In this document: piece by piece, positions 1 to 19,049 of the stretch | How positions within the stretch are numbered: the stretch's first letter is position 1 | Layout: every line of letters starts with the position of its first letter | NCBI GenBank assembly: GCA_022767515.1 | Contig: JALENK010000074.1 | Location: forward strand, 1-33,890 | Length of the DNA: 33,890 bases | Source of the DNA: Clostridium sp. | GTDB taxonomy: Bacteria > Bacillota > Clostridia > Clostridiales > Clostridiaceae | Direction of reading: 5' to 3' | The notes under the pieces: generated by a model | Database searches by the model: none | Seen by the model: only the letters and a program-made list of their open reading frames with translations | What the model was told of the DNA's origin: nothing | Made by a program: the position numbers and the translations under genes

Positions 1-112
1 GATGATGGCGTAGAGGAAACACTCCTTTCCATTCCGAACAGGACAGTTAAGCTCTACAGCGCTGATGGTACTTCACGGGAGACTGTGCGGGAGAGTAAGA
101 CGTTGCCAGGTT
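1..112 (+). rRNA. rrf: 5S ribosomal RNA, 5' end cut by window edge
   Basis: The sequence matches the 5S core (CCATTCCGAACAGG, the GGGAGA loop E region, and GAGAGTAAGACG) and is nearly the same as the second 5S copy near 23865. By comparison with that copy about six or seven bases of the 5' strand of helix I lie outside the window; the 3' strand (GCCAGG, about 105-110) is present. It is followed directly by two tRNAs, so this is probably the distal end of an rRNA operon, although 16S and 23S cannot be seen. Confidence 0.93.
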
Positions 113-118
113 AGATAT

Positions 119-195
119 GGATCTTTAGCTCAGTTGGTTAGAGCAACCGGCTCATAACCGGTAGGTCCGGGGTTCGAGTCCCTGAAGGTCCACCA
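119..195 (+). tRNA. tRNA-Met (CAT), probably elongator
   Basis: Complete cloverleaf: acceptor GGATCTT pairs with AAGGTCC (one T-G pair), anticodon stem ACCGG/CCGGT with loop CTCATAA, anticodon CAT at 153-155, T loop GGTTCGAGTCC, and an encoded CCA. The normal first base pair argues against initiator tRNA, which has an unpaired first position in bacteria. A tRNA-Ile2 whose anticodon C is converted to lysidine has the same CAT and cannot be excluded by eye. It starts a few bases after the 5S and is surely co-transcribed with it. Confidence 0.92.
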
Positions 196-199
196 TTAC

Positions 200-275
200 G
201 GGGGTATAGCTCAGCTGGGAGAGCACCTGCCTTGCACGCAGGGGGTCAAGGGTTCGAATCCCTTTATCTCCACCA
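200..275 (+). tRNA. tRNA-Ala (TGC)
   Basis: Cloverleaf with acceptor GGGGGTA against TATCTCC, anticodon stem CCTGC/GCAGG, loop CTTGCAC, anticodon TGC at 233-235, T loop GGTTCGAATCC and an encoded CCA. It lies four bases after tRNA-Met, in the same transcript, and is the last RNA gene before the terminator. The surface-protein cluster begins about 300 bases downstream. Confidence 0.95.
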
Positions 276-282
276 AACAAAT

Positions 283-328
283 AAGAAGCATAATTTTGAT
301 ACAATGTATCAAAATTATGCTTCTTTTC
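283..328 (+). terminator. Rho-independent terminator of the 5S/tRNA operon
   Basis: A long inverted repeat of about 20 bp (AAGAAGCATAATTTTGAT and its complement) closes on a tiny loop around 302-306 and is followed by TTTTCT. It isolates the following protein gene from rRNA transcription. Confidence 0.92.
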
Positions 329-519
329 TATTTGTACATAGATGATAAAAAAATTGAAGAAAATGATTTATAGAACAACATATAAGGCTCAATTGTGTAT
401 AAAAGTGATAAATAACTGCAATCAGAATTAGCTTGCTCTCATTAGTAGTTCAAAATGCAAGGTTAAAAATGGTAAAAATAAAGATAAATGTACGTATAAA
501 CATTTTTTTCATATTAGAA

Positions 520-549
520 TTTACAGCTAGTACATTTATGGGATATAAT
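520..549 (+). promoter_or_regulatory. Probable sigma-A promoter of the surface-protein cluster
   Basis: TTTACA (520-525), an 18-base spacer and a perfect TATAAT (544-549) lie upstream of the SD and ATG at 589. The implied leader is about 33 bases. The rest of 329-519 shows no convincing gene. The promoter supports placing the first start at 589 and not at 433. Confidence 0.65.
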
Positions 550-588
550 ATTTATATAAAGTACAAAACTAACAGAGGAAGTGTTCGT

Positions 589-1137
589 ATGGAAAATAAA
601 AATAAAAATGAAAAGCAAGGTGTAACTATATCAAAAAAAGCTTTTGTAATAATTGTAACCATTTTCTTACTGTTTGTTGCAGGTGGGGTAGTATTGGGTA
701 TGAATTGGAATAATTGGTTTGGTAATAAACCTGTGGACGCTCCAGCAATTTCACAGAATAACCCTGATATTGATCCGAATGCAGGCGACTGGAACGGTCA
801 GCAGTTAGAGGATAAGGGCGGTGCTTCTAAGGGAATTAAAATCCCTGGCTATCCATCAATAACAATCTCTAAGGATACAAGGGATGTAACGGTGGCGTTT
901 CTTAATCCCGAAGGCAATCCTTGTTACTTTAAATTTGAACTTTTCTTAAAGGATAGCGAAGAAAGAATATACACTTCTAAACTTGTTCCTCCTGGAAAGG
1001 CAATAACAAATATAACTCTTTCAAAGGCGCTTTCCGAGGGAGAGTATGACGCAACAATAAAAATTTCAACATATTCACTTACCGACCAAAGCCCAATGAA
1101 TGGTGCAAATGTCGAAACAGTTTTGATAGCAAAGTAG
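589..1137 (+). CDS. Membrane-anchored extracellular beta-domain protein, first gene of surface cluster
   Basis: A 182-residue protein of unrecognised function. The first ~17 residues are charged (MENKNKNEKQ...), followed by one hydrophobic segment at about residues 18-38 with no clear signal peptidase site, so it is probably a type II membrane protein with its C-terminal domain outside. The outer part holds a Pro/Asn/Asp-rich linker, then an apparently all-beta domain (IPGYPSITISKDT, LNPEGNPCYFKFEL, LSEGEYDATIKIST) of Ig-like character. The start at 589 is chosen because AGAGG lies 10 bases upstream and a promoter sits at 520-549; the longer frame from 433 lacks an SD. Only 13 bases separate it from the next gene, so it is co-transcribed with the repeat-domain proteins. 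I infer it could be their membrane partner, but nothing in the sequence proves that. Confidence 0.8.
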   Translation: MENKNKNEKQGVTISKKAFVIIVTIFLLFVAGGVVLGMNWNNWFGNKPVDAPAISQNNPDIDPNAGDWNGQQLEDKGGASKGIKIPGYPSITISKDTRDVTVAFLNPEGNPCYFKFELFLKDSEERIYTSKLVPPGKAITNITLSKALSEGEYDATIKISTYSLTDQSPMNGANVETVLIAK

Positions 1138-1150
1138 AGGTGTAGGAAAT

Positions 1151-3784
1151 ATGAAAAAAAGAGTTTTATCGGTTATATTAATTCTATCTCTTGTCCTAGT
1201 GTATGTGCCACATATAGTGTTTGCAGTAGGCAGCGAGGTCGCTTTAGACATATCAGACGGAAGTATTGTCATTACTGATGATGGAGCTGAACAAAACGGT
1301 GTTAATCAAACAGCTGATATTTATCGAATTACAGGAACAACGACTTCAAATACGCTTACTGTAAATACATCAGGAACAACAAATTTAATATTTGATGATC
1401 TGACCATTACAAGAACCAATGAATCAAACATGGTTGAAATAAACAGTGGATATGCCAAGGTAACACTTGTCGGAGTAAATCAAATTGGTTGTAGAAATCC
1501 GAACAGGTATGCTTCCATTTATGTTGCAGTGGATGCGACAATAGAGTTTACATCAGATAGCATAGGCAGTCTTAATGTTTACAATTCTACAAATAGCATC
1601 AACGGAAACAATTCTTCTGCAGCAATTGGAGCATCACATAAAAACTTTGCCTTACAAGGCGGAACAATTATTATCAAAGGCGGTACTATCACAGCAGATG
1701 CAGGCTATGGTTCTGCAGGTATTGGTGGTGGAAACGGAACCAATATACAGGCAATTAAGATTAGCGGAGGAACTATTACCGCGTCTTCAACAAGTCAAGG
1801 GGCCGGAATCGGATCTGGAAAACAAGGTACAATTGATTTGTTAGAAATAACTGGTGGAGTTGTCTCTGCTACTGCCCAAAATTCCGGAAAAGCAATCGGC
1901 ACCGGACAATATGGCACTTTAAAGACCAAGAATATCAGTGGAGGTATTATTTCTGAAAATAAAGGTACAACATATACTGTATATGGAGATACCGTGCTGA
2001 CAAACAGCTTTGAGTTACCAAGCAGTTCTCAGCTTACTGTATCTATCGACTGCTCCCTTACTGTAGCAGACGGAGTAACACTTACCAACAGCGGAAACAT
2101 AATAAATAATGGAACTATTACCAATAAAGGAACGATTGAAAACAATGGAACGATTATAAATAACAGTCTTGCCTTAAACATTGGCACTTTCAGCGGAACA
2201 GGTACGATGGACGGAGATACATTAAAGATACCTGCGAAGTATTTAGATGAAAACGGAGAAGAACAAACCGCTTATTGCGATGTAGCAATTACAGCCGAAA
2301 ACATCAACGAATATACTACTCTGAACTCTGGTTGGTATGTGGTTAAAGGAAGCGTATTAGCAGGCAGCCGTATAACCGTTAGTGGCGATGTGAAGCTGAT
2401 TTTGGCAGACCAGAGTATCCTTGATGTCAAAGGTGGTATCGGCGTACCTCAGGGCAGCCATTTCCAGATTTTTGGGCAGGAAGGGCAAACTGGAAGCCTG
2501 AAAGCTACAGATAATTTAGAACTTAGGAACTGTGGCATCGGAGGTACAGGACGAGGTTCCTATGCAGGCGATATAACAATTCATGGAGGTCAGATTACTG
2601 CTAGAGCAGGATTGTACAGTGCCGCCATAGGTGGCGCGGCGGACGGCTATGGCGGCAATATCATCATCAATGACGGTACAGTTACTGCCACAGGCAATGA
2701 GTCGTCAGCCATCGGCGGCGGCTATAATGGCATTTGTGGGAATATTACCATCAACGGTGGCACTGTGACAGCAAATAGCAGTGCATGGGATGCTGCTCTT
2801 GGCGCAGGTCGTCAGGGGTATGCACCCTCTGACAGAATCAACGGTAAAATCACTATTACTGGTGGCATTGTATCGGCTGACAGTATTGGTAGCGGTTATG
2901 CTGGTAAGTCCATAACGGTATCAATTGAGGGCGGAGTTACCATCGGAAAGATTACAGATAGCGCGACGCTCCTAAAGGAACAGGGCATGCTAAATAATGA
3001 AATTTTCGGCGATTTCACACTACCCATTGACTGGACGGTAGAATCCGGTGATAGCCTGTACATTCTTGAAAATACGTTTTTGACCATTCCCAGCGAAGTG
3101 ACCATGACTAATAATGGCAAAATATACGTGGACGGCACTATTAACGGCATATTGAATGGTCCCGGTGAAGTCTACTACCCTATCACTATAGAAGATGGAA
3201 CAGTCAGTGGCGATACTTCCATTTATAATAGTAAAAACTATGGTAAGGTAGGAGCCAAGATTGCTTTAAGCTATAATGCTCCGCCATTAGGTCAAAGCTT
3301 TGGCGAATGGATTACTTCGCCAACTGTAACCATAAGCGACAGCGATACGTTCATAATGCCGAATGAGGCATTAACGATTACTGCACAGTATATTAATACT
3401 CCAACCTACACGGTAACAATTCCTGCTACAGTTGATTTTGACAAGGATATTGAAATTTCAGCCACAGGTGTTAATGTTATTAGTGGCTCACAGTTAGAGA
3501 TTAAGCTGACTAACACCTCAGACGCTACAAACGGCTTTATACTTGAAAACAGCTATGGCGAAAAGATAGAATATGAAATAATAAACAGTGCAACAAACGG
3601 CATAGTTGCATTAAACGATAAGATTTTAACCGTTGCCGGTGGAGTTGCGAACAACAGTGCAATCCAAACCTTTAAGCTAAATCAGGTAACCCAAAAGGTT
3701 AAACATTCCGGCATCTATGAAGGCACAATAACCTTCACCATTTCCGTTGAGGAGGTGGCTACGACACAAACAAATGAAGAATAG
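1151..3784 (+). CDS. Secreted beta-helix protein with C-terminal PTYTVTIP domain
   Basis: An 877-residue secreted protein. Residues 1-25 are a signal peptide (MKKRVLSVILILSLV..., cleavage near VFA). Two stretches of glycine-rich repeats (GGTIIIKGGTITA, SAGIGGG, ISGGTITA; roughly residues 150-280 and 460-580) predict right-handed parallel beta-helices like those of surface and carbohydrate-binding proteins. Between them are short NNGTITNKGTIENNGT repeats and a module beginning near residue 390 (LNSGWYVVKGSV). Residues from about 752 form the beta-domain shared by the cluster ([12 protein letters not shown] ... YEGTITFTISVEE). No anchor motif or catalytic site is visible, so a structural or binding role is likely. 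The SD overlaps the upstream stop. Base composition shifts inside the gene: 2340-3180 is near 50% GC, the first part lower, suggesting a mosaic. The last six residues (TQTNEE) come from a decayed junction described separately. Confidence 0.88.
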   Translation: MKKRVLSVILILSLVLVYVPHIVFAVGSEVALDISDGSIVITDDGAEQNGVNQTADIYRITGTTTSNTLTVNTSGTTNLIFDDLTITRTNESNMVEINSGYAKVTLVGVNQIGCRNPNRYASIYVAVDATIEFTSDSIGSLNVYNSTNSINGNNSSAAIGASHKNFALQGGTIIIKGGTITADAGYGSAGIGGGNGTNIQAIKISGGTITASSTSQGAGIGSGKQGTIDLLEITGGVVSATAQNSGKAIGTGQYGTLKTKNISGGIISENKGTTYTVYGDTVLTNSFELPSSSQLTVSIDCSLTVADGVTLTNSGNIINNGTITNKGTIENNGTIINNSLALNIGTFSGTGTMDGDTLKIPAKYLDENGEEQTAYCDVAITAENINEYTTLNSGWYVVKGSVLAGSRITVSGDVKLILADQSILDVKGGIGVPQGSHFQIFGQEGQTGSLKATDNLELRNCGIGGTGRGSYAGDITIHGGQITARAGLYSAAIGGAADGYGGNIIINDGTVTATGNESSAIGGGYNGICGNITINGGTVTANSSAWDAALGAGRQGYAPSDRINGKITITGGIVSADSIGSGYAGKSITVSIEGGVTIGKITDSATLLKEQGMLNNEIFGDFTLPIDWTVESGDSLYILENTFLTIPSEVTMTNNGKIYVDGTINGILNGPGEVYYPITIEDGTVSGDTSIYNSKNYGKVGAKIALSYNAPPLGQSFGEWITSPTVTISDSDTFIMPNEALTITAQYINTPTYTVTIPATVDFDKDIEISATGVNVISGSQLEIKLTNTSDATNGFILENSYGEKIEYEIINSATNGIVALNDKILTVAGGVANNSAIQTFKLNQVTQKVKHSGIYEGTITFTISVEEVATTQTNEE

Positions 3785-3795
3785 GAAAATTATTT
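3722..3795 (+). repeat. Degenerate copy of the junction with the ubiquitin-fusion gene start
   Basis: This stretch aligns without gaps to 5294-5367, the end of the second beta-helix gene plus the first codons of the ubiquitin-fusion gene, at an offset of 1572. From 3749 to 3795 I count only three differences. Two of them turn the ATG at 5338 into ACA at 3766, which also removes the overlapping TGA stop, so the upstream gene reads on into TQTNEE before a TAG. It looks like a relic of a ubiquitin-fusion gene start, or the scar of a tandem duplication. Confidence 0.8.
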
Positions 3796-3865
3796 AAAAT
3801 TTATCTTACCTAAATCGCACAGTGTGTTCATATATAAAAAATTTATACAAGGAGGAATTAAATAT

Positions 3866-5341
3866 ATGAAAAAAGGTATTGCAATTGTTATGTCAATATT
3901 AGTAGTGTTATCTTGTTTTACAGTTGTTTCGTTTGCAAATAGTCAAACAACACTTGATGTCAGTTATGGTGACATAGTAATAGGTGCTGATTCTGTAAGC
4001 GGATATGATGAAAGCGGAAATGAAGTTACTACTGTAAACCCTAACGGTTATGTTATTACAGGAACAACAACAGAACATACGGTTACTGTTGAGGCAGGAA
4101 ACAATGTTAATATAACTATTAATAATTTATATATTTGGTTTGATACATCAAAAGACTGGGGTACATATGCTGAATGTGCTTTTGCGATAAAATCTGAAAA
4201 AGACAAGCCAACAGTAGTTAATTTAACTGTTCAGGGTTATAATACTCTTCAAAGTGCACATGGTTCTGCTGGAGTGCAAAATTCACAATATAGTACCTTG
4301 ACAATTAATGGTACAGGAATTTTGAAAGCAACAGGAGGAAGTGGTGCTTGTGGAATCGGAGGTGGATGGACAAATAACATATATGTAAGTGATCAATACT
4401 ATGATACTATTGAAAATCGTAGTCACGGTGGTACTATCATTATCAATAGTGGTACAATAATTTCTACAGGTACGAATTCAGGGGCAGGTATTGGTGACGG
4501 TGATTATGGCGGACAATCTGATTACACTTCTATTGCAACAATTAAGATTTATGGTGGAATTGTCAAGGCTATAACTAATTGCGAAGGAGATTTGGTGGGT
4601 GATATTGGCAGAGGCGATGACCATACTGTATATCAATCAAATGTTTTTTATGCAAAAAATACTGTAATATATGCCAACAGAATTACCGATACAGACGGAA
4701 AAAATAATTCTAATGCAATATTCTTTAATTACTATGGAACAAGCGGTACAGTAATAGGTAACCCTACTTTAAGTAGTGATCTTATCGTGCCAGAGGGGGC
4801 TACACTTACTATTCCTGAAGGAACAACGCTTAATTTGGCTGACGGAGCCAAACTTACAGTTAGAGGTTCTGTTATAAACAATGGTTCAATCATAAGTAAT
4901 GGTACGATAATAGGAAAAGAAAATATTACAGGAAGCGGAACACTGACAGAAGATCAAATGATAGCAGTTAGTTATTCTGTTGCACCAACCTATACAGTAA
5001 CAATTCCTGCTAGCGTTGAGCTCGGCGCTACGGCGGAAATCAAGGCAGAAAATGTTATTTTGGATAACGGAAAAATGCTTTGCATAAAGCTTACAGGCAC
5101 AAGTGAAACAAACAATTCCTTTAAGCTGAAAACAGCTGAGAACGCAGAGTTATCTTATACAGTAAATGATGGTACAAATAATATAAGCGTTGGAGATACT
5201 GTTTTGTCTGTAAATCCCGATGATACTAACACTGGCATAGTAATACTTAACTTTGCTAAGCAAGGAAATGAAGCCTACGCCGGAGCATATAAAGGCACAA
5301 TAACTTTTACCGTTTCCGTTGAGGAGGTGGCTACGACATGA
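3866..5341 (+). CDS. Secreted beta-helix protein with C-terminal PTYTVTIP domain, paralogue of the preceding gene
   Basis: A 491-residue paralogue of the upstream protein. It has a signal peptide ([18 protein letters not shown]..., cleavage near SFA at ~24), an N-terminal part that aligns with its neighbour ([12 protein letters not shown] and [11 protein letters not shown] against DISDGSIVIT and RITGTTTSNTL), a shorter beta-helix with [11 protein letters not shown] and GAGIGDG repeats, and the shared C-terminal beta-domain from about residue 374. The start at 3866 has AAGGAGG eight bases upstream; a longer reading frame from 3824 lacks an SD. The final VEEVATT codons contain GAGGAGGTGG, which is the SD of the next gene, and the stop TGA overlaps that gene's ATG (ATGA), so the two are probably translationally coupled. 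No anchoring motif is seen. A structural or binding surface protein is inferred. Confidence 0.9.
4985..5335 (+). repeat. Shared-domain DNA repeat, copy A
   Basis: The DNA coding for the C-terminal beta-domain here is close to that at 5677-6024 (offset 692), including the identical run TATACAGTAACAATTCCTGC and the run around AAGGCAGAAAATGTT. The other cluster genes keep the protein pattern but less DNA identity, so this pair duplicated most recently. Confidence 0.8.
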
Positions 5342-6024
5342 ACAAATTAAGAATAGGAAAATTATTTGCATTTATGATCGTATTGGTTATAACTTTTTCA
5401 TCGACATTCAATGCATACGCACTGCAGATATTTGTAAAAACGCTAACAAATAAGCATATCACTATTGAGGTTGAGCCAACAGACACTATCGGAGTTGTTA
5501 AACAGAAGGTATACGAAAAAACGGGTACTCTTCCTGAAGTGCAAAGACTGATTTTTGCAGGAAAACAACTTGAGGATGACGAAACATTGCAAGCTTACTC
5601 AATCCAAAAGGAGTCTATTTTGCATTTGGTTCTCAAAGATGATGTCAAAACATTAACAGTTGAATTTGTTTCAGCACCAACCTATACAGTAACAATTCCT
5701 GCCACCGTTGAATTAGGCGGCACGATAGAAATCAAGGCAGAAAATGTTGTTGTTGAAAAAGGTAAGCAGGTTGAGGTTAAGCTAACAGGCACAAGCGAGG
5801 ACGATAACACCTTTAAACTGAAAACAGCAGAGAATGCAGAGTTAGCCTATACAATAAACGACGGCACAAATAATATAAGCATTGGAGATACTGTTTTGGT
5901 GGTAAATCCAAAGGATACAAAAACAGGAAGCGCAATTCTTGCTTTTGCTCAATCTGGTGACGTAGAGTTTGCAGGAAACTATTCAGGCACAGTAACCTTT
6001 ACTGTTTCGGTTGAATCGGTTTAA
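5338..6024 (+). CDS. Secreted ubiquitin-domain protein fused to PTYTVTIP domain
   Basis: A 228-residue protein. Residues 1-28 are a signal peptide ending in AYA. Residues 29-100 align without gaps to eukaryotic ubiquitin residues 1-72, 49 identical by my count: [42 protein letters not shown]. All seven ubiquitin lysines (6, 11, 27, 29, 33, 48, 63) and the Leu8, Ile44, His68, Val70 surface are kept, and predicted signal cleavage puts Leu29 where ubiquitin has Met1. The LRLRGG tail is replaced by [10 protein letters not shown], so it cannot be conjugated as ubiquitin is. Residues 113-228 are the beta-domain shared by the cluster. The start overlaps the previous stop (ATGA). The function is unknown: the ubiquitin fold may be a structural head, a ligand for host or protist ubiquitin-binding proteins, or a mimic. 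The known bacterial precedent is the secreted ubiquitin of Bacteroides fragilis. Confidence 0.93.
5677..6024 (+). repeat. Shared-domain DNA repeat, copy B
   Basis: Partner of the copy at 4985-5335, encoding the C-terminal domain of the ubiquitin fusion. It shows that the ubiquitin gene took its second half from the beta-helix gene, or the reverse, by local duplication. Confidence 0.8.
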
Positions 6025-6067
6025 TAATAAATAAAGGAGAGAACTATTATGAAAAAATCATTATCAT
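5986..6067 (+). repeat. Duplicated gene-junction repeat (partner at 6484-6565)
   Basis: The end of the ubiquitin fusion, the intergenic region and the start of the next gene align gap-free (offset 498) with the next junction; I see about eight or nine differences in 82 bases. GAATCGGTTTAA at the first site corresponds to GAATAGGTTTAA at the second, so a point change decides whether the stop is at the first or third codon. This marks a tandem duplication of domain gene plus leader. Confidence 0.8.
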
Positions 6068-6516
6068 TCATACTTGCACTTGTTATGGTGCTTTCGGTAT
6101 CAACAACAGCATTTGCAGGAATAATCAAAGAAGACAGCACCCAACAGTCAGACAGCACTGAAATTAAATATAATGTTGACCCTACATATACAGTAACCAT
6201 TCCTTCAAATGTTACGCTAGGAGAAAAAGCAACAGTTAAGGTTGAAAACACAATTCTTAAGCTGGGTGACGAGGTTAAGGTTAAGCTCACTGGTACAAGT
6301 GGAACAGACAATGCATTTTTGGTCAAAACTCCCCAGGATGCGGAGCTTGCTTATACAGTTAAAAACGGCAACACAGTAATCAATGTGGGCGACACAGTTA
6401 TAAGCTGTGCAAGTCTGGTTAATGATGAGGTAGAGCTTTTGTTCACTGCTCCCACATCAGTACAGTATGCAGGAGAATACACAGGCACAGTAACCTTTAC
6501 CGTTTCAGTTGAATAG
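6049..6516 (+). CDS. Small secreted single-domain PTYTVTIP protein
   Basis: A 155-residue protein made of a signal peptide (MKKSLSFILALVMVLSVS..., cleavage near AFA at ~23), a short polar stretch (KEDSTQQSDS), an alternating hydrophobic strand (TEIKYNVD) and the shared beta-domain ([14 protein letters not shown] ... [16 protein letters not shown]), which reaches the very C-terminus. AAAGGAGAG precedes the ATG. It lacks a cell-wall sorting signal, transmembrane anchor or catalytic motif. Because the domain is also the C-terminal module of larger neighbours, I infer that it mediates assembly or cell-surface attachment and that this protein is a minimal subunit. The junction with the next gene is a tandem duplicate of its own upstream junction. 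Confidence 0.88.
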   Translation: MKKSLSFILALVMVLSVSTTAFAGIIKEDSTQQSDSTEIKYNVDPTYTVTIPSNVTLGEKATVKVENTILKLGDEVKVKLTGTSGTDNAFLVKTPQDAELAYTVKNGNTVINVGDTVISCASLVNDEVELLFTAPTSVQYAGEYTGTVTFTVSVE

Positions 6517-6546
6517 GTTTAATAATAAATTAAGGAGGTAACTATT

Positions 6547-7269
6547 ATGAAAAAATTATTATCATTTGCCCTTGTTATGATGCTTTCAGTATCGGTAACA
6601 GCATTTGCAGCAGAAACAAGCATTAACCAAGACTCTGATGACCGGACTGGCGGCACAAGTATCATCTATACAGTTGCACCGACCTATACTGTAACTATTC
6701 CTGAGACGGTTACGCTTAGCAAGATTGAAAAACAAGATGGCACTGTTACCTACGAAAGTGAGATGGGCGTGACTGCCGATGCGGGTCTAAGACTTTTAGA
6801 GGGACAGGCACTGAGACTTTCACTATACAGTAATTTTAAGATGAAGACTTCTCAAGATGCCGAATATGAGCTTCCTTACACCTTAACTGTGGGTGCGGGT
6901 GCGTACGCACAAGAGCTTTCTGATGGAGATACGATTGGTTATTTTCACACAAACACCACAGAGCAAATAATCTTTATGCACATTGCAACCGAAGATCCTT
7001 TCTATGCTGGTGAATATAAAGGAACTGTAACTTTTGGGATTGAGGTTGTACCGACCTTTACGGTTCGTTTAGGAAGTGGTGAATATACGATAGAAAATGG
7101 TATGACTTGGGAGGATTTTGCAGAGCTTTATGCCGGGGTAATAGAGTTTGACGAGACTGACGGTTCGGTTAGCATGGCGAGAGAAAATGGAAGTCTGTTT
7201 TTAGATAATTCTTTTGTCAAAAAAGATGATGTAATAGTAAAGAGAGGTAATTATTTTCTCCTTGCTTAA
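6547..7269 (+). CDS. Secreted [14 protein letters not shown] protein with extra C-terminal GMTW module
   Basis: A 240-residue protein: a signal peptide (cleavage near AFA at ~22), a linker with the motif INQDSDD that recurs in the next two genes, then the shared beta-domain ([13 protein letters not shown] ... YAGEYKGTVTFGIEV, to about residue 168). Unlike its paralogues it continues for some 70 residues (TFTVRLGSGEYTIENGMTWEDF ... VIVKRGNYFLLA). I recall similar short modules with a GMTW motif at the ends of other Firmicute surface and phage-type proteins, but cannot confirm the family here. TAAGGAGGT lies seven bases before the ATG. The domain holds an insertion (KQDGTVTYESEM) also found in the next gene, which groups these two. 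Function unknown; a decorated variant of the small subunit is inferred. Confidence 0.87.
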   Translation: MKKLLSFALVMMLSVSVTAFAAETSINQDSDDRTGGTSIIYTVAPTYTVTIPETVTLSKIEKQDGTVTYESEMGVTADAGLRLLEGQALRLSLYSNFKMKTSQDAEYELPYTLTVGAGAYAQELSDGDTIGYFHTNTTEQIIFMHIATEDPFYAGEYKGTVTFGIEVVPTFTVRLGSGEYTIENGMTWEDFAELYAGVIEFDETDGSVSMARENGSLFLDNSFVKKDDVIVKRGNYFLLA

Positions 7270-7310
7270 ATAAAATTTAATTTAAAAAAATAGAAGGGAG
7301 CATTCGTATT

Positions 7311-7817
7311 ATGAAAAAATTATTAGTATCTTTATTAACAATCACACTTTTAGTTTCGGTATCGGTAACAACATTTGCCACAGATATTAATCAAGATAGC
7401 GATCCTAAAAGATTGAATACTTCTTTGGGATTTGTTATTGATCCGACTTATACAGTCACAATCCCTGCAAATGTTAAGCTCGAGAAGCAAACGGCACCGG
7501 ATGGCACAATTACTTATGAAAAGGATTTAACTATCACTGCGAATGATGTTAGACTACATCAGAATACTGCAATCAGTGTTTCTATGGAAGGCGACTTCAA
7601 AATGGATGTTACCAATGCAAGCACTGTAAATTTGTATCAGTTGCCTTATCAGGCTTTTGTCGGCGACAACGAGATAACAGAAACCAATAATTTAGTCGCC
7701 GTGTTTGATACGAATACAAGCGAACAGTCTGCTGTTATTCATTTTACAGCAAATAATCCGGAATATGCAGGTGATTACAGTGATACTGTAACATTCATCA
7801 TAGCTAATTTATATTAA
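7311..7817 (+). CDS. Small secreted single-domain PTYTVTIP protein
   Basis: A 168-residue protein with a signal peptide (MKKLLVSLLTITLLVSVS..., cleavage near TFA at ~23), the linker TDINQDSDPKRLNTSL, and the shared beta-domain [15 protein letters not shown] ... YAGDYSDTVTFIIANLY at the C-terminus. The insertion KQTAPDGTITYEKDL matches the one in the previous protein. AGAAGGGAG precedes the ATG. No anchor or catalytic residues can be seen. It is one of four small paralogues in a row and is probably an interchangeable or co-assembling structural subunit; that role is inferred from arrangement only. Confidence 0.88.
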   Translation: MKKLLVSLLTITLLVSVSVTTFATDINQDSDPKRLNTSLGFVIDPTYTVTIPANVKLEKQTAPDGTITYEKDLTITANDVRLHQNTAISVSMEGDFKMDVTNASTVNLYQLPYQAFVGDNEITETNNLVAVFDTNTSEQSAVIHFTANNPEYAGDYSDTVTFIIANLY

Positions 7818-7848
7818 TCCAAAATATTGTTAAAGGAGAATACCCACT

Positions 7849-8322
7849 ATGAAAAAAATATTATTAACATTATTATCAATTACACTTTTAGCTTCAGTAT
7901 CGGTAACCGTCTTTGCTACAGAAATCAATCAGGGTAGCGAACCTAAAACAGTCGATACAGAGATTACTACCTCTATTGTCCCAACTTACACAGTCACAAT
8001 TCCTGCTAATGTTAATGTGCCATTTAATGCACAATCTACCGATTTCGGTAGCATTGAGGTAACTGCTGCACAGATTAACCCTGACAAATGTATTAAGGTG
8101 GCTCTTATATCAGACGGCGAGCTGAAAAACACGGTCGACGAAACAAAGGTTATACCTTATACAGTAAAATCAGGCGATACAGCATTTACCTTTGCAACAT
8201 ACCTTGCTGCAGATGACAAAACAGACCTTACAATCAACATTACCGAGGACGATTGGAACAAAGCCTATGCAGGAGATTATACTGATACAGTTACATTTGA
8301 GGTGTCATATATTAATAAATAA
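7849..8322 (+). CDS. Small secreted single-domain PTYTVTIP protein
   Basis: A 157-residue protein with signal peptide (cleavage near VFA at ~23), linker TEINQGSEPKTVDTEI, and shared domain [16 protein letters not shown] ... YAGDYTDTVTFEVSYINK. The linker matches the INQDSDPK element of the two upstream proteins and is followed by alternating hydrophobic residues directly before [15 protein letters not shown] precedes the ATG, and the next gene begins 13 bases after the stop. The core between the two conserved ends is strongly diverged from its neighbours, as expected for an old duplicate or for antigenic variation. Function unknown. Confidence 0.87.
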   Translation: MKKILLTLLSITLLASVSVTVFATEINQGSEPKTVDTEITTSIVPTYTVTIPANVNVPFNAQSTDFGSIEVTAAQINPDKCIKVALISDGELKNTVDETKVIPYTVKSGDTAFTFATYLAADDKTDLTINITEDDWNKAYAGDYTDTVTFEVSYINK

Positions 8323-8334
8323 GGAGGAGAAATA

Positions 8335-9213
8335 ATGAAGAAAATAGCATCATTGCTGTTATGCTTATGTCTTGTTTTTTCCTTATCAACTGTTGCATTT
8401 GCACAAACTGTATCTGAAAGCGAAAATAGCGGGAAGTCTGTAATATCCACATCCGTACCATATTCTCATACTGTAACAGTATCCGCGAGCGGTGCAGAGG
8501 TCTTATTTGACGGATCACTGCAGAACAGCTTTGTGGTTGATCGTTTATCAAAGCCTACAGTTATCATTAGGGCAAACAGTGGTAAAGCCATAAAACAAGT
8601 GCTTTTAAACGACGAGGATATTACCTCTAAAATCAAGGGCGGATATTATACCTTTGAGTCAGTTTATGATGATAAGACACTAACTGTTATTACTGAGGAC
8701 GAAGCTGCCGTACCACAAAATAAAACATATACTATTAAAGGGACTGTTAAAACAAATGGAGAGCCAGTTCAAGGTATTACGCTTGAATTGAGAAGCACTC
8801 TTAAAACAGATGTTACGGATAAGAACGGCAAGTTTTCCTTTGATGATGTTGAATGTGGAAAACACTCGTTAACGGCAATACAAAACGGAAAGATTGTAGG
8901 CTATGTTGAGTTTGAGCTGACCGATGGAACTCAGGCGGATGTTTCCCTTTTGGAAATCGGACTTTACAATGTTATAGCTAACAAAAATGAAATCGGTGTC
9001 AATTTAAACTTAAATCTAAATAATGATGGAAGGATGCAGATAGACGGAATTTCCGGTATTAAGGGAAATAATGATACAGACTCTAAATTTATGCAGACAG
9101 GCGATAACAGTAATATTTCATTTTGGATTCTGATTTTGTTTATATCATTTGCCATAGTTGTATTAATTAATATTTATAGTAAGATAAAAAAGCAGAAAAT
9201 ATATTCTAAGTAA
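8335..9213 (+). CDS. Surface protein with carboxypeptidase-regulatory-like domain and degenerate sortase tail
   Basis: A 292-residue protein closing the cluster. It has a signal peptide (cleavage near AFA at ~23), a region that looks like a diverged version of the cluster domain (SVPYSHTVTVSASG), and a carboxypeptidase-regulatory-like beta-sandwich at about residues 130-205 (TIKGTVKTNGEPVQGI, TDVTDKNGKFSFDDVECGKH). Near the end it has FMQTGDNSN, about 18 hydrophobic residues and a basic tail (KIKKQKIYSK). That is the layout of a sortase signal such as LPQTGDNS with the LP pair changed, so it may be wall-anchored by a variant sortase or simply stay in the membrane. No sortase gene lies in the window. 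As the only obviously anchored member it is a candidate base for the others. AAGGAGGAG precedes the ATG, and a terminator follows the stop immediately. Confidence 0.87.
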   Translation: MKKIASLLLCLCLVFSLSTVAFAQTVSESENSGKSVISTSVPYSHTVTVSASGAEVLFDGSLQNSFVVDRLSKPTVIIRANSGKAIKQVLLNDEDITSKIKGGYYTFESVYDDKTLTVITEDEAAVPQNKTYTIKGTVKTNGEPVQGITLELRSTLKTDVTDKNGKFSFDDVECGKHSLTAIQNGKIVGYVEFELTDGTQADVSLLEIGLYNVIANKNEIGVNLNLNLNNDGRMQIDGISGIKGNNDTDSKFMQTGDNSNISFWILILFISFAIVVLINIYSKIKKQKIYSK

Positions 9214-9214
9214 A

Positions 9215-9256
9215 AGGACAGCCTGTTTCGTAATACGACGAACAGGCTGTCTTTTA
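9215..9256 (+). terminator. Rho-independent terminator ending the surface cluster
   Basis: GACAGCCTGTT pairs with AACAGGCTGTC, with a further TCG/CGA inside, preceded by AAAA and followed by TTTTAT. It begins right behind the stop codon of the sortase-tail gene. Confidence 0.93.
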
Positions 9257-10393: not shown

Positions 10394-11923
10394 ATGAAAC
10401 TTAAGAATAAAATTTTAGGCAATTTAACTTTTTATAAAGGCTTTTCAATAATGTTTATACTACTTGCCATTATTATTGTGGCTGGAGTAATATTTATTTA
10501 TCCACAAGTAGGAGTCGCTGACCAAGGTGATTTTGATAGGGTTATGGCACCAGCCGGTTTAACATTATTAGATATAGACAAAAGTAATCCTAACTTTATA
10601 AGATTTTATGATTATATAGTTACGGATTATCATATTGACAGAAATATAGTAACATTTTTTCTTACATTGATAAATTCTAGTATAGGATACCTAATTTTTA
10701 TTATATGTACTATATGTCAAATTTTTGGTTCAGATGTTTTTAGAACACAGTATTTAGCTTTTATTTATGCAGGTATGTATATTTTTGCTTTATGGAAAAT
10801 AATAAGTGGTTTGAATATCAAGAGTAAATTCAAAAATATATTTTTAGCAATAATAATATTATTTGTCTTTTTAGATGGTAATTATCTTCGATGGTTTAAT
10901 AGTCTTTATGGTGAACCAATGATGATATCAACCCTATTATTATTTATTGCAGCATACTTATCATATATTAATAATAAATATGTAAAGAAAATAGATAATC
11001 ATATAGGAAGAAGTATATTATATATTTTAATAGCAGCGTTTTTATACTTAGGGTCTAAGATGCAGGTTATGACTACAATGCCTTTTGTAGTAATATTAAT
11101 TATTAAGGCTTTATGGGATAATAGAAAGATACTAAAGAAAAAGGTATTAATTGGACTAAGTATATTATTTTGTATAGTGATTTCTTATCCACTTGTAATT
11201 GGAATGCAGGGAGGAGAGTTAAGTAAGGATACGCAATATAATTCTGTATTTTATGGTATATTAAACGGATCTGAGACTCCAGAGCAAGATTTAATAGATA
11301 TGGGATTAAATCCTGATATGGCAGTAGAAGCTGGAAAACATGCCTATGAAAGTAAGGAGGACTATGTAAAATATATACCAAGAACTGAGATAACTGAACA
11401 GGAGTTTTATAGTAAGATGAGCAATATGAAACTAGCTATGTTCTATTTAACTCATCCATTAAGGTTAATAGATGGCTTAGAATATACGGCATCAAAGGCA
11501 TATATTACTAGTACGTCATTAGGAGCACATTCAAGAGAATATAGTGAAGAACCTGTAAAAGAATTTCATAGATTTACATTATGGTCTGATTTTAGAGAAA
11601 ATAATTTTATTGGACATTTTTGGTTTATTGCATTAATTTTTGCTATTGTATTATGTGGTTCAATATACAAATTTATAAAATCTAAAGGTAATCTTGAAAT
11701 TAGAAATAAAATAATGTTACTTTGGGGAGTAATGTTTATGGGCGCAATTCAATTTCCAATGCCTTTTGTAGGAAATGGAAGAGCGGATACAGCTAAGCAG
11801 TTATTCTTATTCAATTTTATATTTGATATATTAATTGTAGTTATTGTGGTTGCATTAATAAGTAAGATATATGATTTGTTTACAAATAGAAAGGTGGAAA
11901 GAAGTGAGAATACAGAAGTTTAG
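10394..11923 (+). CDS. Polytopic membrane protein, probable GT-C type glycosyltransferase
   Basis: A 509-residue protein with about ten hydrophobic segments. After the first segment an outward loop carries acidic residues (GVADQGDFDRVM), as in GT-C enzymes, which take sugar from polyprenyl-phosphate on the outer face and place the catalytic Asp in the first outer loop. A large hydrophilic loop (about residues 275-390) follows the middle segments. The downstream genes encode a GtrB-type transferase and a GtrA-type flippase, so this fits the third component (as YfhO in Bacillus) that moves the sugar onto a wall polymer. That role is inferred from topology and neighbours; no family-specific signature was recognised. 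AGGAGG precedes the ATG. Its 3' end overlaps the next gene by 20 bases. Confidence 0.72.
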   Translation: MKLKNKILGNLTFYKGFSIMFILLAIIIVAGVIFIYPQVGVADQGDFDRVMAPAGLTLLDIDKSNPNFIRFYDYIVTDYHIDRNIVTFFLTLINSSIGYLIFIICTICQIFGSDVFRTQYLAFIYAGMYIFALWKIISGLNIKSKFKNIFLAIIILFVFLDGNYLRWFNSLYGEPMMISTLLLFIAAYLSYINNKYVKKIDNHIGRSILYILIAAFLYLGSKMQVMTTMPFVVILIIKALWDNRKILKKKVLIGLSILFCIVISYPLVIGMQGGELSKDTQYNSVFYGILNGSETPEQDLIDMGLNPDMAVEAGKHAYESKEDYVKYIPRTEITEQEFYSKMSNMKLAMFYLTHPLRLIDGLEYTASKAYITSTSLGAHSREYSEEPVKEFHRFTLWSDFRENNFIGHFWFIALIFAIVLCGSIYKFIKSKGNLEIRNKIMLLWGVMFMGAIQFPMPFVGNGRADTAKQLFLFNFIFDILIVVIVVALISKIYDLFTNRKVERSENTEV

Positions 11924-13760
11924 GTTAGAATTAAATAGCTGTAAGGATTTTTTGTTGAACCATATAATAAGAAAAACTTCTAATAGACTGAGAATAATTG
12001 TTTTATTAATGGTTCTTATAAAAACTTTTATATTTATGTCTATGATAGAATCGCAAACTTGTAATCAGATTTCGATTAACAATATGGAATTTAAGTTTGC
12101 AATAACATATTTATCATTTATTTTAATAATATATTCCTTCGGCTTTTTGCTGAATAAGAATAAGCAATTGGTGTTTAATTTATTATTTGACATTTTATAT
12201 ACAGGAATATTAGTCTTTGATTTGTGGTACTTTAGAACAAATAAGGATTTTTATGGATTAAAAAATGTATTTTATCCAGATACGTTTAATTTAAGTGGGC
12301 AAAGTTTGATAAATTTTCAATTGATTGATATTGTATTTTTTATAGATATAATCTTCATATTATTATGGATTATAATTAAGAAGATTAAAATTACAGAGAA
12401 TAGAAGCATTGCTAAATTCTCAGTAACTATAAGATATTCGATAATTGCTATACTTATATCTTTTGTATGTTTAGATATGTTTTCTATGGCAGGTTGGTCT
12501 AAGTATATTACTGCATCAGGTTGGACTACACTTATGTCAGCAAGAGCTGCTGGTCCATTAGGATATCATTTTGTTGAGGGTTGTAAAACTATAAAAAAGT
12601 TTTTATCTAACGTGAGTGAAGAGGAAGAAAAACAAATAACAGAATGGCTTGAATATAATAAAGAAGATTTGCCGGATAACGAATTTATGGCTTCAGCAAA
12701 GGGAAAGAATGTGATATTTCTTCAGATTGAATCATTTGAAAATTTTGTAGTAAATAGAAAGGCTAATGGTAAGGAGATTACACCTTTTCTGAATAAATTA
12801 ACAAAAGAAGGATTATATTTTAACAATATATATCAGCAAAATAATGCAGGAAATAGCATAGATTGTGATTTCTTAGTAAATACTTCTGTTTATCCATTAG
12901 GAATGAATAAAATTACAGCTTTATATTATGGTACAAATACTTATAAAAATGCTTTACCAAGGGTATTGAAGAGAAATGGATATAATACAATATCTACACA
13001 TGCTGAGGAATTTAATGAGTTCAATTGGACGGAAATTCATAAAAATAGCTTTGGAGCAGATAAATTGTGGAGTATACGAGATTATAAAGAGGACGAATGT
13101 GTAGGATATGGTTTATCAGATAGAAGTTTTTATACTCAAGTTGCAGATAAATTAAAAAATGAGCAGGAGCCATTCTTTTTACAAATGCCAACTTTATCAA
13201 GTCATGGACCATTTGATATCGATAAAAAATATAGAGAGTTAGATTTACCAGAGGAAATAGATAAAAGTTATTTGGGTGGATATTTTGAAAGTCTACATTA
13301 TGCTGATAAACAGATAGAAATGTTTTTTAATAAGTTAAAAGAGTATGGAATATTGGAAAATTCACTTATAGTAATATATGGAGACCATGCAGGAGTACAT
13401 AAATATTATAATAGTGATATACAGGAATTAGATTTTGAAGGTAATTGGTGGAAGCCATATGATAATAAAATTCCTTTATTTATTTATGGAGCAGATGTTG
13501 AAGGGAAAACAATTGAAAATGTTGGTGGGCAAATTGATATTTTACCAACAGTATGTTATTTATTAGGAATAGAAAAAGAACAATATATAAATACAAGTAT
13601 GGGAAGAATTTTAGTCAATACTGAAAGAAATGCAACTGTAATAAAAGGTAATGAGATTATGGGGAAGGTTAAAGATAAAGAGGAAGAAAAGCATTTATTG
13701 CAAGCCTATAAAATTGGCGAGTTAATTATAAAGAATGATTATTTTAAAAATAATAATTAA
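11904..13760 (+). CDS. LtaS-type phosphoglycerol transferase (teichoic-acid polymerase family)
   Basis: A 618-residue protein: about five N-terminal transmembrane segments, then from about residue 260 an extracellular alkaline-phosphatase/sulfatase-fold domain. Motifs: NVIFLQIESFENF (metal ligand Glu), AGNSIDCDFLVNTSVYP (nucleophile loop), STHAEEFNEFNW, LSSHGPFD, and VIYGDHAGVH (metal ligands Asp-His). LtaS enzymes transfer glycerol-phosphate from phosphatidylglycerol to a growing polymer at the outer membrane face. The nucleophile, Thr in characterised LtaS, is Ser318 here. The GTG at 11904 is taken as start because AAGGTGG is six bases upstream and it overlaps the previous gene by 20 bases, exactly as two genes further on; the frame is open further upstream (to 11871) without an SD. 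First of three such paralogues in the locus. Confidence 0.9.
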   Translation: MRIQKFRLELNSCKDFLLNHIIRKTSNRLRIIVLLMVLIKTFIFMSMIESQTCNQISINNMEFKFAITYLSFILIIYSFGFLLNKNKQLVFNLLFDILYTGILVFDLWYFRTNKDFYGLKNVFYPDTFNLSGQSLINFQLIDIVFFIDIIFILLWIIIKKIKITENRSIAKFSVTIRYSIIAILISFVCLDMFSMAGWSKYITASGWTTLMSARAAGPLGYHFVEGCKTIKKFLSNVSEEEEKQITEWLEYNKEDLPDNEFMASAKGKNVIFLQIESFENFVVNRKANGKEITPFLNKLTKEGLYFNNIYQQNNAGNSIDCDFLVNTSVYPLGMNKITALYYGTNTYKNALPRVLKRNGYNTISTHAEEFNEFNWTEIHKNSFGADKLWSIRDYKEDECVGYGLSDRSFYTQVADKLKNEQEPFFLQMPTLSSHGPFDIDKKYRELDLPEEIDKSYLGGYFESLHYADKQIEMFFNKLKEYGILENSLIVIYGDHAGVHKYYNSDIQELDFEGNWWKPYDNKIPLFIYGADVEGKTIENVGGQIDILPTVCYLLGIEKEQYINTSMGRILVNTERNATVIKGNEIMGKVKDKEEEKHLLQAYKIGELIIKNDYFKNNN

Positions 13761-13777: not shown

Positions 13778-14758
13778 ATGAGTGATACACTATATTTAGT
13801 AGTACCTTGTTATAATGAAGAAGAGGCATTACCAGAAACAAGTAAAAGGTTATTAGAAAAGTTAACTAAGATGCAGGAAAAAGATTTGGTAAGTAAGGAT
13901 AGCAGAATATTATTTGTTAATGATGGTTCTAAGGATAAAACATGGAGTATAATTGAAAAACTTCATGAAAGTAATAAATTATTTTGTGGTTTAAATTTAT
14001 CAAGAAACAAAGGACATCAGAATGCATTACTAGCAGGGCTTATGACAGCAAAGGAGCTTGCAGATATGACTATTTCTTTAGATGCGGATTTACAAGATGA
14101 TATTGAAGTAATTGATAAATTTGTTGAAGAATATTATGCAGGAAGCGATGTAGTTTATGGAGTTAGGTCATCAAGAAAGACAGATACATTCTTTAAGAGA
14201 ACTACAGCATTAGGATTTTATAAGTTTATGACGAAATTGGGGGTTGATGTTGTTTACAATCATGCTGATTACAGACTTATGAGTAAGAGAGCATTAGAAG
14301 GATTAAGTCAGTTTAAAGAAGTAAATTTATTTTTAAGAGGCATAGTTCCATTGATAGGATATAGACATACTGTTGTAGAGTATGAAAGACATGAAAGAAT
14401 AGCAGGAGAGTCTAAATATCCATTGAAGAAAATGCTATCATTTGCTTGGGATGGAATAACTTCATTTAGTATAAAACCTATTAGAATAATAACAGGTTTA
14501 GGATTTTTAATATTTATATTGAGTTTAGTTGCATTAATTTATGCACTTATTGTTAATTTGATGGGTAAAACTGTTAGTGGATGGACTTCAATGACTGCAT
14601 CTATTTGGATGATAGGAGGGATACAATTACTTTCTATTGGAGTAATTGGTGAATATATTGGTAAAATTTATAATGAAACAAAACAAAGACCTAGATACAT
14701 TATTTCAGATAAGTTAATTGATAAAGAAGAGGAAAGTAATGAAAAAAATAATAACTAA
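13778..14758 (+). CDS. GtrB-type polyprenyl-phosphate glycosyltransferase (GT2)
   Basis: A 326-residue protein. The N-terminal ~230 residues are a GT-A fold of family 2: LVVPCYNEEEALP, FVNDGSKDKT, LSRNKGHQNALLAGL, and the metal-binding DADLQDD. Two C-terminal transmembrane segments (IRIITGLGFLIFILSL... and a second near residue 280) complete the DPM1/GtrB/CsbB layout. Such enzymes transfer a sugar from a nucleotide sugar to undecaprenyl-phosphate on the inner face; a GtrA protein then flips the product. The next gene begins with a GtrA domain and overlaps this one by 20 bases, which strongly supports the pairing. GGAGG lies seven bases before the ATG. The sugar cannot be told from sequence. 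Confidence 0.93.
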   Translation: MSDTLYLVVPCYNEEEALPETSKRLLEKLTKMQEKDLVSKDSRILFVNDGSKDKTWSIIEKLHESNKLFCGLNLSRNKGHQNALLAGLMTAKELADMTISLDADLQDDIEVIDKFVEEYYAGSDVVYGVRSSRKTDTFFKRTTALGFYKFMTKLGVDVVYNHADYRLMSKRALEGLSQFKEVNLFLRGIVPLIGYRHTVVEYERHERIAGESKYPLKKMLSFAWDGITSFSIKPIRIITGLGFLIFILSLVALIYALIVNLMGKTVSGWTSMTASIWMIGGIQLLSIGVIGEYIGKIYNETKQRPRYIISDKLIDKEEESNEKNNN

Positions 14759-17021: not shown

Positions 17022-19049
17022 ATGAGGAAAATAAAACAACTAATCTCAAGTAAAGAATTTTTACATTATATGATAATTATGGGATTAAATCTAGTGATAA
17101 GCGGAATATTATTTTTGATATTTTGGCAAGTTATGAGAATGTCTCTAGCGATTACTTTTGCTATTATTATTGGAACTAGTATAGGATTTTTTATAAATAA
17201 TAAATTTCCAGCTAAAATAGATATGCTATGCTTATGGGTACAAAAATATGTTCAGAAAATTATAAATAATAATAGTATTTTTAGAATCATAATTGTTTTA
17301 GATGGTTTGATGAAAACAGTATTATTTATGGCAGTTTTAAGAAGTGAAGCGGATGGGGCCTGGTCTTATAGTAATATTATGATGAATTATGCACCAACAT
17401 ACTTTGCTTTTATACTCTTGTTTTATTCATTTACATATTTATTATCAAAGAAAGGTCAAAATATATATCTTTTAATAATGAATTTTATTTATTCATTATT
17501 ATTAATTGCAGATATATCATATTATAGAACAAGTAGAGATTTACTTAGTTTAAAGCAATTATTGTACCCAAGTTCTTTTAATTTATATAATGAGTCGATA
17601 ATTAACTTTAAAATACTTGATTTGATTTTTATAGTTGATAGTATAATTATTTTGGTTATTTACATAATAAAAAAAATAGAGAGTCGAGAAAAAAGAAGTT
17701 TTAAGAAATTTTTTATTTCAATTATTGCATCTATGCTAATTATATCTGGTTCAGTAATATATTATGATATTTATCATTTAAGTTCTAATTGGTATGATAC
17801 TATTGCTACTATTCAGCACAATACAGTTGTAAACAATAATGCAGGGGGTCCTATTGCATATACCCTTTCTGAATCATTAAGGGCATTAATGAGGAAAAGT
17901 TATAAATTAAGTGAACAGGATAAAAAAGAAGTTGAAGATTGGTTTGAGCAGAACAGAGAAGATTTACCTAACAATGAATATTTTTCAGCATTAAAAGGAA
18001 AAAATATTCTATTGATACAGGTTGAATCTTTAGAGAATTTTGTATTAAATAGAACTGTAGAGGGAAATGAAATAACACCATTTTTAAATAAATTGGTTAA
18101 GAATAGTATTTATTGTAGTAATTTTTATGAAGAAAATGGTGAGGCGTTAAGTATAGACTGTGATTTTATATTAAATTCATCAATTTATCCTAGTAGACGT
18201 TATAAAACAGGAGTGTATTATGGTGAAAATACTTACTCAAATTCATTACCTAGGATATTAAAAAGAAATGGATATCATACAATTTCAACACATGCAGAAG
18301 ATAAGGATAATTATAACTGGAGTGAATTTCATAGATGTGGATTTAATCCAGATGAAATGTGGTCTATAGAGGATTATGATTATGATGAAAAAATTGGTTA
18401 TGGATTATCAGATGAGAGCTTTTATAGACAGGTATATGATAAAATTCAAAATATAAAGCAACCATTTTTTCTACAAATGGCTACATTAGCAAGTCATGGA
18501 CCATTTGATATTGGAGATGAAAATAAAACAATACATTTTTCATATAAATTGGAATCTAGTCATCTAGGAAAATATTTTCAAGCTGTAAGATATGCAGATG
18601 AACAATTAGAAAAATTCTATAATAAGTTAGTTGAAAGTGGAATGATGGAAAATACTGCATTAGTAATATTAGGCGACCATTCAGGAGTGCATAGATACTA
18701 TAATGATGAGCTTCAAAAACTAGATTATGAAGGTGATTGGTGGAGAAATTTTGACCATAAGATTCCATTAATTATATATGCTGAAGGAATAAAGCCTAAA
18801 GAAGTTACAGTATCAGGTGGACAAGTAGATGTATTGCCAACCTTAAGCTATCTTTTAGGAATTGATAAAAATGAATATAATAAGACATCAATGGGAAGAG
18901 TTTTATTAAATACTAATAGGGATGCAACTATTATGCATACGCAAGAAATAGTAGGGAATGTAAGAAATGAAGAAGAACGAGAATTTATATTAAAAAGTTA
19001 TGATATTGGTGAGAAAATAATTAAAAGTGATTATATGAATAGAGAATAG
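17022..19049 (+). CDS. LtaS-type polymerase with shortened GtrA-like N-terminus
   Basis: A 675-residue paralogue of the preceding fusion. The N-terminus has only two hydrophobic segments resembling the first half of GtrA (FLHYMIIMGLNLVISGILFLI, ITFAIIIGTSIGFFINNKF), then moves straight to the LtaS membrane domain, so the flippase half looks eroded. The catalytic domain is intact: NILLIQVESLENF, EALSIDCDFILNSSIYP with Ser377 at the nucleophile position, STHAEDKDNYNW, LASHGPFD, VILGDHSGVH. It shares long C-terminal runs with its neighbour (VTVSGGQVD, SMGRVLLNTNRDAT), so it is a recent tandem duplicate. AAGGAGAG precedes the ATG. The terminator stem overlaps the stop codon. Confidence 0.9.
   Translation: MRKIKQLISSKEFLHYMIIMGLNLVISGILFLIFWQVMRMSLAITFAIIIGTSIGFFINNKFPAKIDMLCLWVQKYVQKIINNNSIFRIIIVLDGLMKTVLFMAVLRSEADGAWSYSNIMMNYAPTYFAFILLFYSFTYLLSKKGQNIYLLIMNFIYSLLLIADISYYRTSRDLLSLKQLLYPSSFNLYNESIINFKILDLIFIVDSIIILVIYIIKKIESREKRSFKKFFISIIASMLIISGSVIYYDIYHLSSNWYDTIATIQHNTVVNNNAGGPIAYTLSESLRALMRKSYKLSEQDKKEVEDWFEQNREDLPNNEYFSALKGKNILLIQVESLENFVLNRTVEGNEITPFLNKLVKNSIYCSNFYEENGEALSIDCDFILNSSIYPSRRYKTGVYYGENTYSNSLPRILKRNGYHTISTHAEDKDNYNWSEFHRCGFNPDEMWSIEDYDYDEKIGYGLSDESFYRQVYDKIQNIKQPFFLQMATLASHGPFDIGDENKTIHFSYKLESSHLGKYFQAVRYADEQLEKFYNKLVESGMMENTALVILGDHSGVHRYYNDELQKLDYEGDWWRNFDHKIPLIIYAEGIKPKEVTVSGGQVDVLPTLSYLLGIDKNEYNKTSMGRVLLNTNRDATIMHTQEIVGNVRNEEEREFILKSYDIGEKIIKSDYMNRE

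Follow-up and report, generated by a model that had tools for sequence, protein, structure and literature searches.

Ubiquitin is taught as an intracellular tag of eukaryotes. A bacterial counterpart, BfUbb of Bacteroides fragilis, is an exported protein whose mature form begins directly at the signal peptide cleavage site; it has lost the terminal glycine and is inhibitory to other strains of the species, according to two papers that call it unique or state that most bacteria have no such protein (PMC5705921, PMC3352274). Here we describe a fusion gene at positions 5338 to 6024 (plus strand) of a 33,890-nucleotide stretch of Clostridium sp. DNA (assembly GCA_022767515.1, contig JALENK010000074.1), the whole of which is called the window below. 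The open reading frame (ORF) starts with ATG and encodes 228 amino acids, comprising a predicted signal peptide (5338..5421), a ubiquitin domain equivalent to ubiquitin residues 1 to 72 (5422..5637), a short linker in place of LRLRGG (5638..5682), and a C-terminal, putatively pilin-like beta domain (5683..6021), with 128 residues in all following the ubiquitin domain. The two proteins are alike in that both signal peptides end at ubiquitin residue 1 and both lack the terminal glycine; they differ in that BfUbb is a free protein of 76 residues with a C-terminal cysteine, whereas the window protein contains no cysteine and is fused to a putatively pilin-like domain encoded in a cluster of surface genes.

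A closer relative is carried by plasmid pRUMAL01 of Ruminococcus albus 7, where it is annotated as a "ubiquitin family protein" (WP_013483628). It shares with the window protein the two-domain architecture, 42.6% identity over 96% of the query, and the layout of the surrounding cluster, but its ubiquitin is nearer the human one (65/72 identical positions versus 49/72), its linker is longer, and its cluster contains a PI-PLC-X domain protein (locus L003, 5913-7121), another eukaryote-flavoured element. The initial annotation needs one correction in that the window fusion is no isolated oddity and belongs to a class spread over many phyla. We propose, with a probability of roughly 0.48, that the exported, non-conjugatable ubiquitin is display cargo of a cell surface or fibre, where some extracellular partner that recognises ubiquitin would bind it.

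The domain behind the signal peptide is a ubiquitin. A scripted count gave 49 of 72 positions identical between human ubiquitin 1-72 and fusion residues 29 to 100, without gaps, in agreement with the hand count made earlier, and the same alignment bore out the claim that the seven lysines (K6, K11, K27, K29, K33, K48, and K63) and the L8/I44/H68/V70 patch are all retained, Met1 being replaced by leucine. The fusion matched PF00240 with 85.7 bits (E 1.8e-24; curated cut-off, 25.4), and in a search of PDB sequences polyubiquitin domains scored about 77 to 82 bits, query residues 28/29-100 aligning with ubiquitin 1-72. Together, the identity count and the Pfam and PDB scores exclude a chance resemblance, while a placement among ThiS/MoaD-like beta-grasp proteins is implausible and was set aside on the 68% identity to human ubiquitin and the Pfam score. 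The AlphaFold2 model had a mean predicted local distance difference test score of 92.7 and a predicted template modelling score of 0.61, the latter probably reflecting a loose placement of the two domains relative to each other. Foldseek superposed the model on solved ubiquitins with a root mean square deviation of 0.3-0.8 Å for the listed rows covering 71-72 columns, and a larger one for rows extending past residue 72. The ubiquitin fold sought by the initial annotation is thus present in the model, where it was to be expected and is no independent proof, since the modelling alignment included ubiquitins of other loci.

Reading of the translation revealed that the residues after K72 differ and that RLRGG is not present; the di-glycine is replaced, as had been stated before, by a linker to a domain common to six neighbouring genes. 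The window ubiquitin therefore keeps its lysines and Ile44 face, yet lacks the C-terminus of a conjugatable ubiquitin. In the absence of the di-glycine it should escape both conjugation and release by deubiquitinases. The source genome gave no match to the E2 family (PF00179), for which the control genomes gave no match either.

The signal peptide of the fusion was judged by reading the sequence, which has a charged start, a hydrophobic core, and A-Y-A followed by Leu1, with cleavage predicted after AYA. Sec export and signal peptidase would thus yield a mature protein starting at ubiquitin residue 1. This arrangement is not confined to the window protein. A scan of a genome collection with degenerate patterns returned 409 stretches, 351 of which encode ubiquitin relatives; the best 80 of the 351 were examined and combined with loci from other searches into a set of 90 ubiquitin ORFs (92 before; an overlapping duplicate was dropped). 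This duplicate, L008, which overlaps L004, was excluded from the signal peptide, substitution, tree, and conservation counts, and a divergent second ubiquitin, L038 (34/72), from the tree, the grouping test, and the conservation count. By a simple hydrophobicity rule, which favours closeness because it requires the core to lie within 15 residues of the domain, 74 of the 90 ORFs carry a signal peptide core close upstream. An AxA-like site stands exactly before ubiquitin residue 1 in 74/74, with alanine at position -1 in 66 of them, which agrees with the earlier claim that the export signal ends at this residue. At control positions 1 to 12 residues upstream the site test was passed by 9 to 38 of the 74, the value of 38, obtained two residues upstream, being due to the -3 residue, and inside ubiquitin by 0 or 1. 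Among the 16 ORFs without a close signal peptide, four (L021, L028, L060, and L076) show hydrophobicity 19-20 residues ahead of ubiquitin, so that their mature proteins may start with a short spacer; the other 12 fell below the hydrophobicity threshold, and some of them may be eukaryotic contaminants.

More than 60 residues follow the ubiquitin in 65 of the 74 proteins, a definition that also covers the window protein with its predicted site at residue 1. The GG is kept in only eight, six of which then have a long tail. The 74 ORFs span 13 named phyla, including two Methanothrix-type archaea, and 13 of the 74 come, by title, from named isolate strains (e.g., Conexibacter, Dyella, Loktanella, Pseudohaliea, Rhodopirellula, Saccharibacillus, and Rhodoferax), so that binning error is no explanation for the class as a whole. 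Surveys with the PF00240 profile, which are independent of the peptide patterns, agreed with the scan: matches were found in 5/391 genomes of the class, 2/59 relatives, and 2/398 genomes of the phylum, the source genome being counted each time, and all eight proteins recovered (window, L002, two in G063, L005, L006, L007, and L157) start with signal peptide-ubiquitin, the tail of L007 ending at the contig end. The trait is thus rare per species but wide. Two adjacent, different proteins of this kind are encoded in the G063 genome (L004/L008), and the metagenome-assembled genome (MAG) Tb.RUG.35 has at least two long ones on separate contigs (L017 and L036). The same start was seen in Conexibacter, KSB1, and the two Methanothrix-type archaea (L011, L024, L039, and L067), the archaeal cases being MAGs.

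The class appears to be undescribed as a large group of surface proteins: searches of the open-licence PMC literature listed no paper recognisable from its title and abstract start as a description of it, preprints and subscription papers lying outside these searches, although a class member already bears the name "ubiquitin family protein" in databases. What follows the ubiquitin varies. A Pfam scan of 70 proteins cut at 600 residues, some of them without a close signal peptide (four of the 74 listed plus-strand stretches, namely, the first copies in L013, L043, L061, and L082, were left out, as were all minus-strand ORFs and stretches below 130 residues), matched PF00240 in 70/70; counting the ubiquitin models, 45 families were matched. 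The modules behind ubiquitin comprised autotransporter (14 proteins), Glug (5), Flg_new_2 (5), Flg_new (4), fn3 (4), SLH (3), SdrD_B (2), a type IX secretion system tail (2), IPTL-CTERM (2), and others. A constant ubiquitin front joined to changing modules reads as display.

The same distribution can be read in another way, namely, that ubiquitin, whose fold is very stable, is a fast-folding, protease-resistant N-terminal cap that aids export and shields the rest of the surface protein, in which case the binding faces of ubiquitin would not matter. The occurrence of ubiquitin ahead of unrelated modules in many phyla and the general stability of its fold would both suit such a cap, but an exact ubiquitin N-terminus is not obviously required by it. 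In addition, among 19 non-redundant divergent members, drawn from 24 with at most 62/72 identities, identity to human ubiquitin was 0.90 for the lysines and 0.82 for the Ile44 patch versus 0.65 for other exposed sites, a difference that is suggestive only, because the scan patterns themselves contain K6, L8, I44, and K48. We consider the cap an unlikely explanation. Over the 4005 pairs of the 90 ubiquitin domains, the median proportion of synonymous differences was 0.90 and that of nonsynonymous ones 0.119; saturated synonymous sites together with a conserved protein indicate long divergence under purifying selection.

A BfUbb-like antibacterial toxin domain, mounted on a surface protein and inhibiting close relatives on contact, would also explain an exported ubiquitin without its glycine. 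BfUbb resembles the window protein in where its mature form begins and in the loss of the last glycine, and its action against B. fragilis strains shows that such an exported ubiquitin can act on bacteria (PMC5705921, PMC3352274). The toxin reading is also in line with the free signal peptide-ubiquitin genes that we observed in Dyella (L075 and L086). Later work reportedly concerns a periplasmic target of BfUbb. Against the toxin stands the observation that BfUbb is free and soluble, while 65 of the 74 class proteins are long fusions with differing modules. Besides, the syntenic loci share only surface-type genes beside the fusion; no search was aimed at immunity genes, however, and it has been suggested that BfUbb producers need none (PMC5705921). 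On balance we regard the toxin as quite improbable.

In a tree of the ubiquitin domains, rooted with NEDD8 as the outgroup and based on 72 columns, too few for resolution (1 of 89 inner branches was starred), the window domain grouped with L009, L010, L014, L040, and others (support 93, not starred), and H12, Q57, and S60 are common to nearly all members of this group. The alternative grouping with the ubiquitins of the syntenic loci L003, L031, and L070 was not rejected (P = 0.178).

We return to display and to the domain that would carry it. The C-terminal domain is repeated in the window genes at 1151, 3824, 6049, 6547, and 7311, as found by search, and at 7849, as found by alignment, and it matched no Pfam or NCBIfam family above the curated cut-off. 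The structure matches of its model were weak but consistent, being to chaperone-usher pilins and the pilin domains of tip adhesins; chaperone-usher subunits made up Foldseek rows 1-17 and all of the 50 listed VIA rows. Some points weigh the other way: the Foldseek TM-scores and one unrelated best structure match slightly lowered our confidence in display as the best explanation and in the wider generalisation given at the end, and slightly raised that in the cap. In Enterococcus and Listeria, a related domain (profile E 9e-14) terminates leucine-rich repeat (LRR) proteins, so that it seems to serve as a tail for surface cargo in general, ubiquitin being one such cargo. These fold matches, and the similar domains closing beta-helix and LRR proteins, lend some support to the earlier idea of a surface-assembly domain. 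The linker, which includes an alternating hydrophobic strand ahead of YTVTIP, is placed by the structural alignment at the position of the N-terminal extension of FimG and might act as a donor strand.

The putative pilin-like beta sandwich, also present in the adjacent single-domain proteins, could accordingly incorporate ubiquitin in a fibre or layer on the cell surface, whose subunits might be linked by donor-strand exchange, as the weak fold similarity and the strand preceding the domain suggest. Such an arrangement would resemble that of the two-domain tip adhesins FimH, CfaE, and CsuE, which combine an N-terminal functional domain with a C-terminal pilin-like domain and are accompanied by single-domain proteins; in the adhesins the functional domain is a lectin, and in the window protein it is ubiquitin. 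Ubiquitin would then occupy the lectin position, as beta-helix or LRR domains may do in sister proteins. No match to an usher (PF00577) or a PapD-like chaperone (PF00345) was found in the source genome, which is 88.75% complete, while the E. coli control matched. The BspA-type LRR loci of Enterococcus and Listeria (L155 and L156) are similar in having a related membrane protein and a related C-terminal domain, and differ in their LRR cargo, with no ubiquitin in the stretches read. The likeliest role of the displayed ubiquitin would be that of a ligand whose partner recognises ubiquitin and belongs to another organism, such as an animal host, a second bacterium, or a protist that grazes on the cells.

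The neighbouring genes, all on the plus strand, fit a surface cluster. The first encodes a membrane protein with an N-terminal transmembrane segment and an IPGY..NPEGNPCYFKFEL motif that recurs in fusion loci (589..1137; the listed ORF starts at TTG 433, but ATG 589 is the likelier start). Its relatives occur in 15/391 genomes of the class, the source genome included, and also in Enterococcus and Listeria (40% identity over 123 residues); a search of PDB sequences gave nothing significant for it. It is followed by two secreted proteins closing in the repeated domain, one beta-helix-like (1151..3784) and the other sharing DNA repeat D7 with it (3824..5341). Downstream of the fusion, search and alignment identified two predicted proteins with a signal peptide and a single repeated-type domain (6049..6516 and 7311..7817) and, between them, one with a C-terminal extension (6547..7269), while another single-domain protein (7849..8322), unlisted by the domain search, was recognised by alignment and DNA repeat D2. 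The last gene (8335..9213) encodes a signal peptide, a carboxypeptidase-regulatory-like domain (Pfam scan), a C-terminal transmembrane segment, and a basic tail; with a sorting-like MQTGD read by eye before the transmembrane segment, its product is a possible wall or membrane base. The arrangement with the membrane protein first, domain proteins on either side of the ubiquitin fusion, and the C-terminal transmembrane protein last recurs on R. albus 7 pRUMAL01 and in MAG L031. In a second syntenic MAG, L070, near a contig end, the membrane protein is directly followed by the fusion; a histidine kinase and a response regulator lie upstream (29-4937), with a possible conjugation gene seen by eye (29-1471), and this cluster may be regulated and mobile. 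The tail of the L040 fusion is similar too, but no other cluster gene was seen beside it.

The start of the fusion ORF overlaps the stop of the preceding gene by 4 bases, with GGAGG 10 bases upstream of the ATG. Bases 5288-5367 are 91% identical over 80 bases to bases 3716-3795, where the paralogue at 1151-3784 ends and its downstream sequence begins, which makes it seem that the start of the ubiquitin gene arose by local duplication.

Comparison with related genomes shows that the cluster, about 8.8 kb long, has been inserted between tRNA-Ala and the gene that normally adjoins it; the cluster was thus acquired horizontally. On the left it is bordered by the two tRNA genes that close an rRNA operon, tRNA-Met and tRNA-Ala (119..275, plus strand), just past which lies an inverted repeat with 20-bp arms (283-325); at its right end is a terminator-like inverted repeat with a T-run (9212..9255, plus strand), read by eye and unlisted by the repeat scanner. 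The homologue of ORF 9393 is the usual neighbour of tRNA-Ala in the genus: among the 62 other genus genomes that have this homologue, no fewer than 41 place the rRNA/tRNA end 111-742 bp ahead of it (median, 456), and ARAGORN found tRNA-Ala in 15 of 19 such loci; in the window the distance is 9117 bp. The GC content at third codon positions is 0.21-0.35 for the genes from 433 to 9213 versus 0.12-0.22 for the remainder of the window, and the overall GC content of other contigs of the genome is 0.25-0.32 in nine readable stretches, the tenth being masked. None of the nine cluster genes is integrase-like. The incompleteness of the genome (88.75%, 113 contigs) and the GC step at about 9.2 kb on the contig could be taken as signs of an assembly chimera or of a recent, functionless transfer from a eukaryote. 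Both flanks, however, are the normal neighbours of the genus (at least 41/62 genomes), on which ground a chimera was rejected, the cluster layout recurs on the sequenced R. albus plasmid, and synonymous sites are saturated while the protein is conserved among members, all of which makes this account extremely improbable. A phage origin was rejected, as no phage record matched the fusion protein. Viral contigs did yield nine ubiquitin loci, kept apart from the 90 ORFs; four (L089, L090, L092, and L094) have free or tandem ubiquitin, and L091, L093, and the near-identical L095-L097 have a signal peptide-like start ahead of it.

Elsewhere in the window, three membrane proteins that resemble one another and are each half sulfatase-like (11871-13760, 14718-16991, and 17022-19049) are perhaps a lipoteichoic-acid-synthase-like set; 11871-13757 matches Pfam Sulfatase, the other two were judged by eye, and a glycosyltransferase-like ORF (13778-14758) adjoins them. 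Near the right contig end, an ORF of 517 amino acids (31974-33527) has no Pfam match at E 0.001.

The window protein itself is a variant of secreted bacterial ubiquitin, and the larger news is the class as a whole. The putatively pilin-like domain of the window protein hints at an uncharacterised fibre type. A far-reaching, and in our estimate doubtful, generalisation is that prokaryotes of many phyla carry at the tips of surface proteins a ubiquitin with a native front, in most cases non-conjugatable, as a common molecular handle offered to a ubiquitin reader outside, here capping a donor-strand pilin-like fibre built without an usher or PapD chaperone. The class opens to experiment the question of which partners recognise extracellular ubiquitin. 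If the generalisation is true, there would be many unrecognised microbial ubiquitin antigens, relevant to anti-ubiquitin autoantibodies, and non-eukaryotic cells would use ubiquitin as an extracellular signal or bait.
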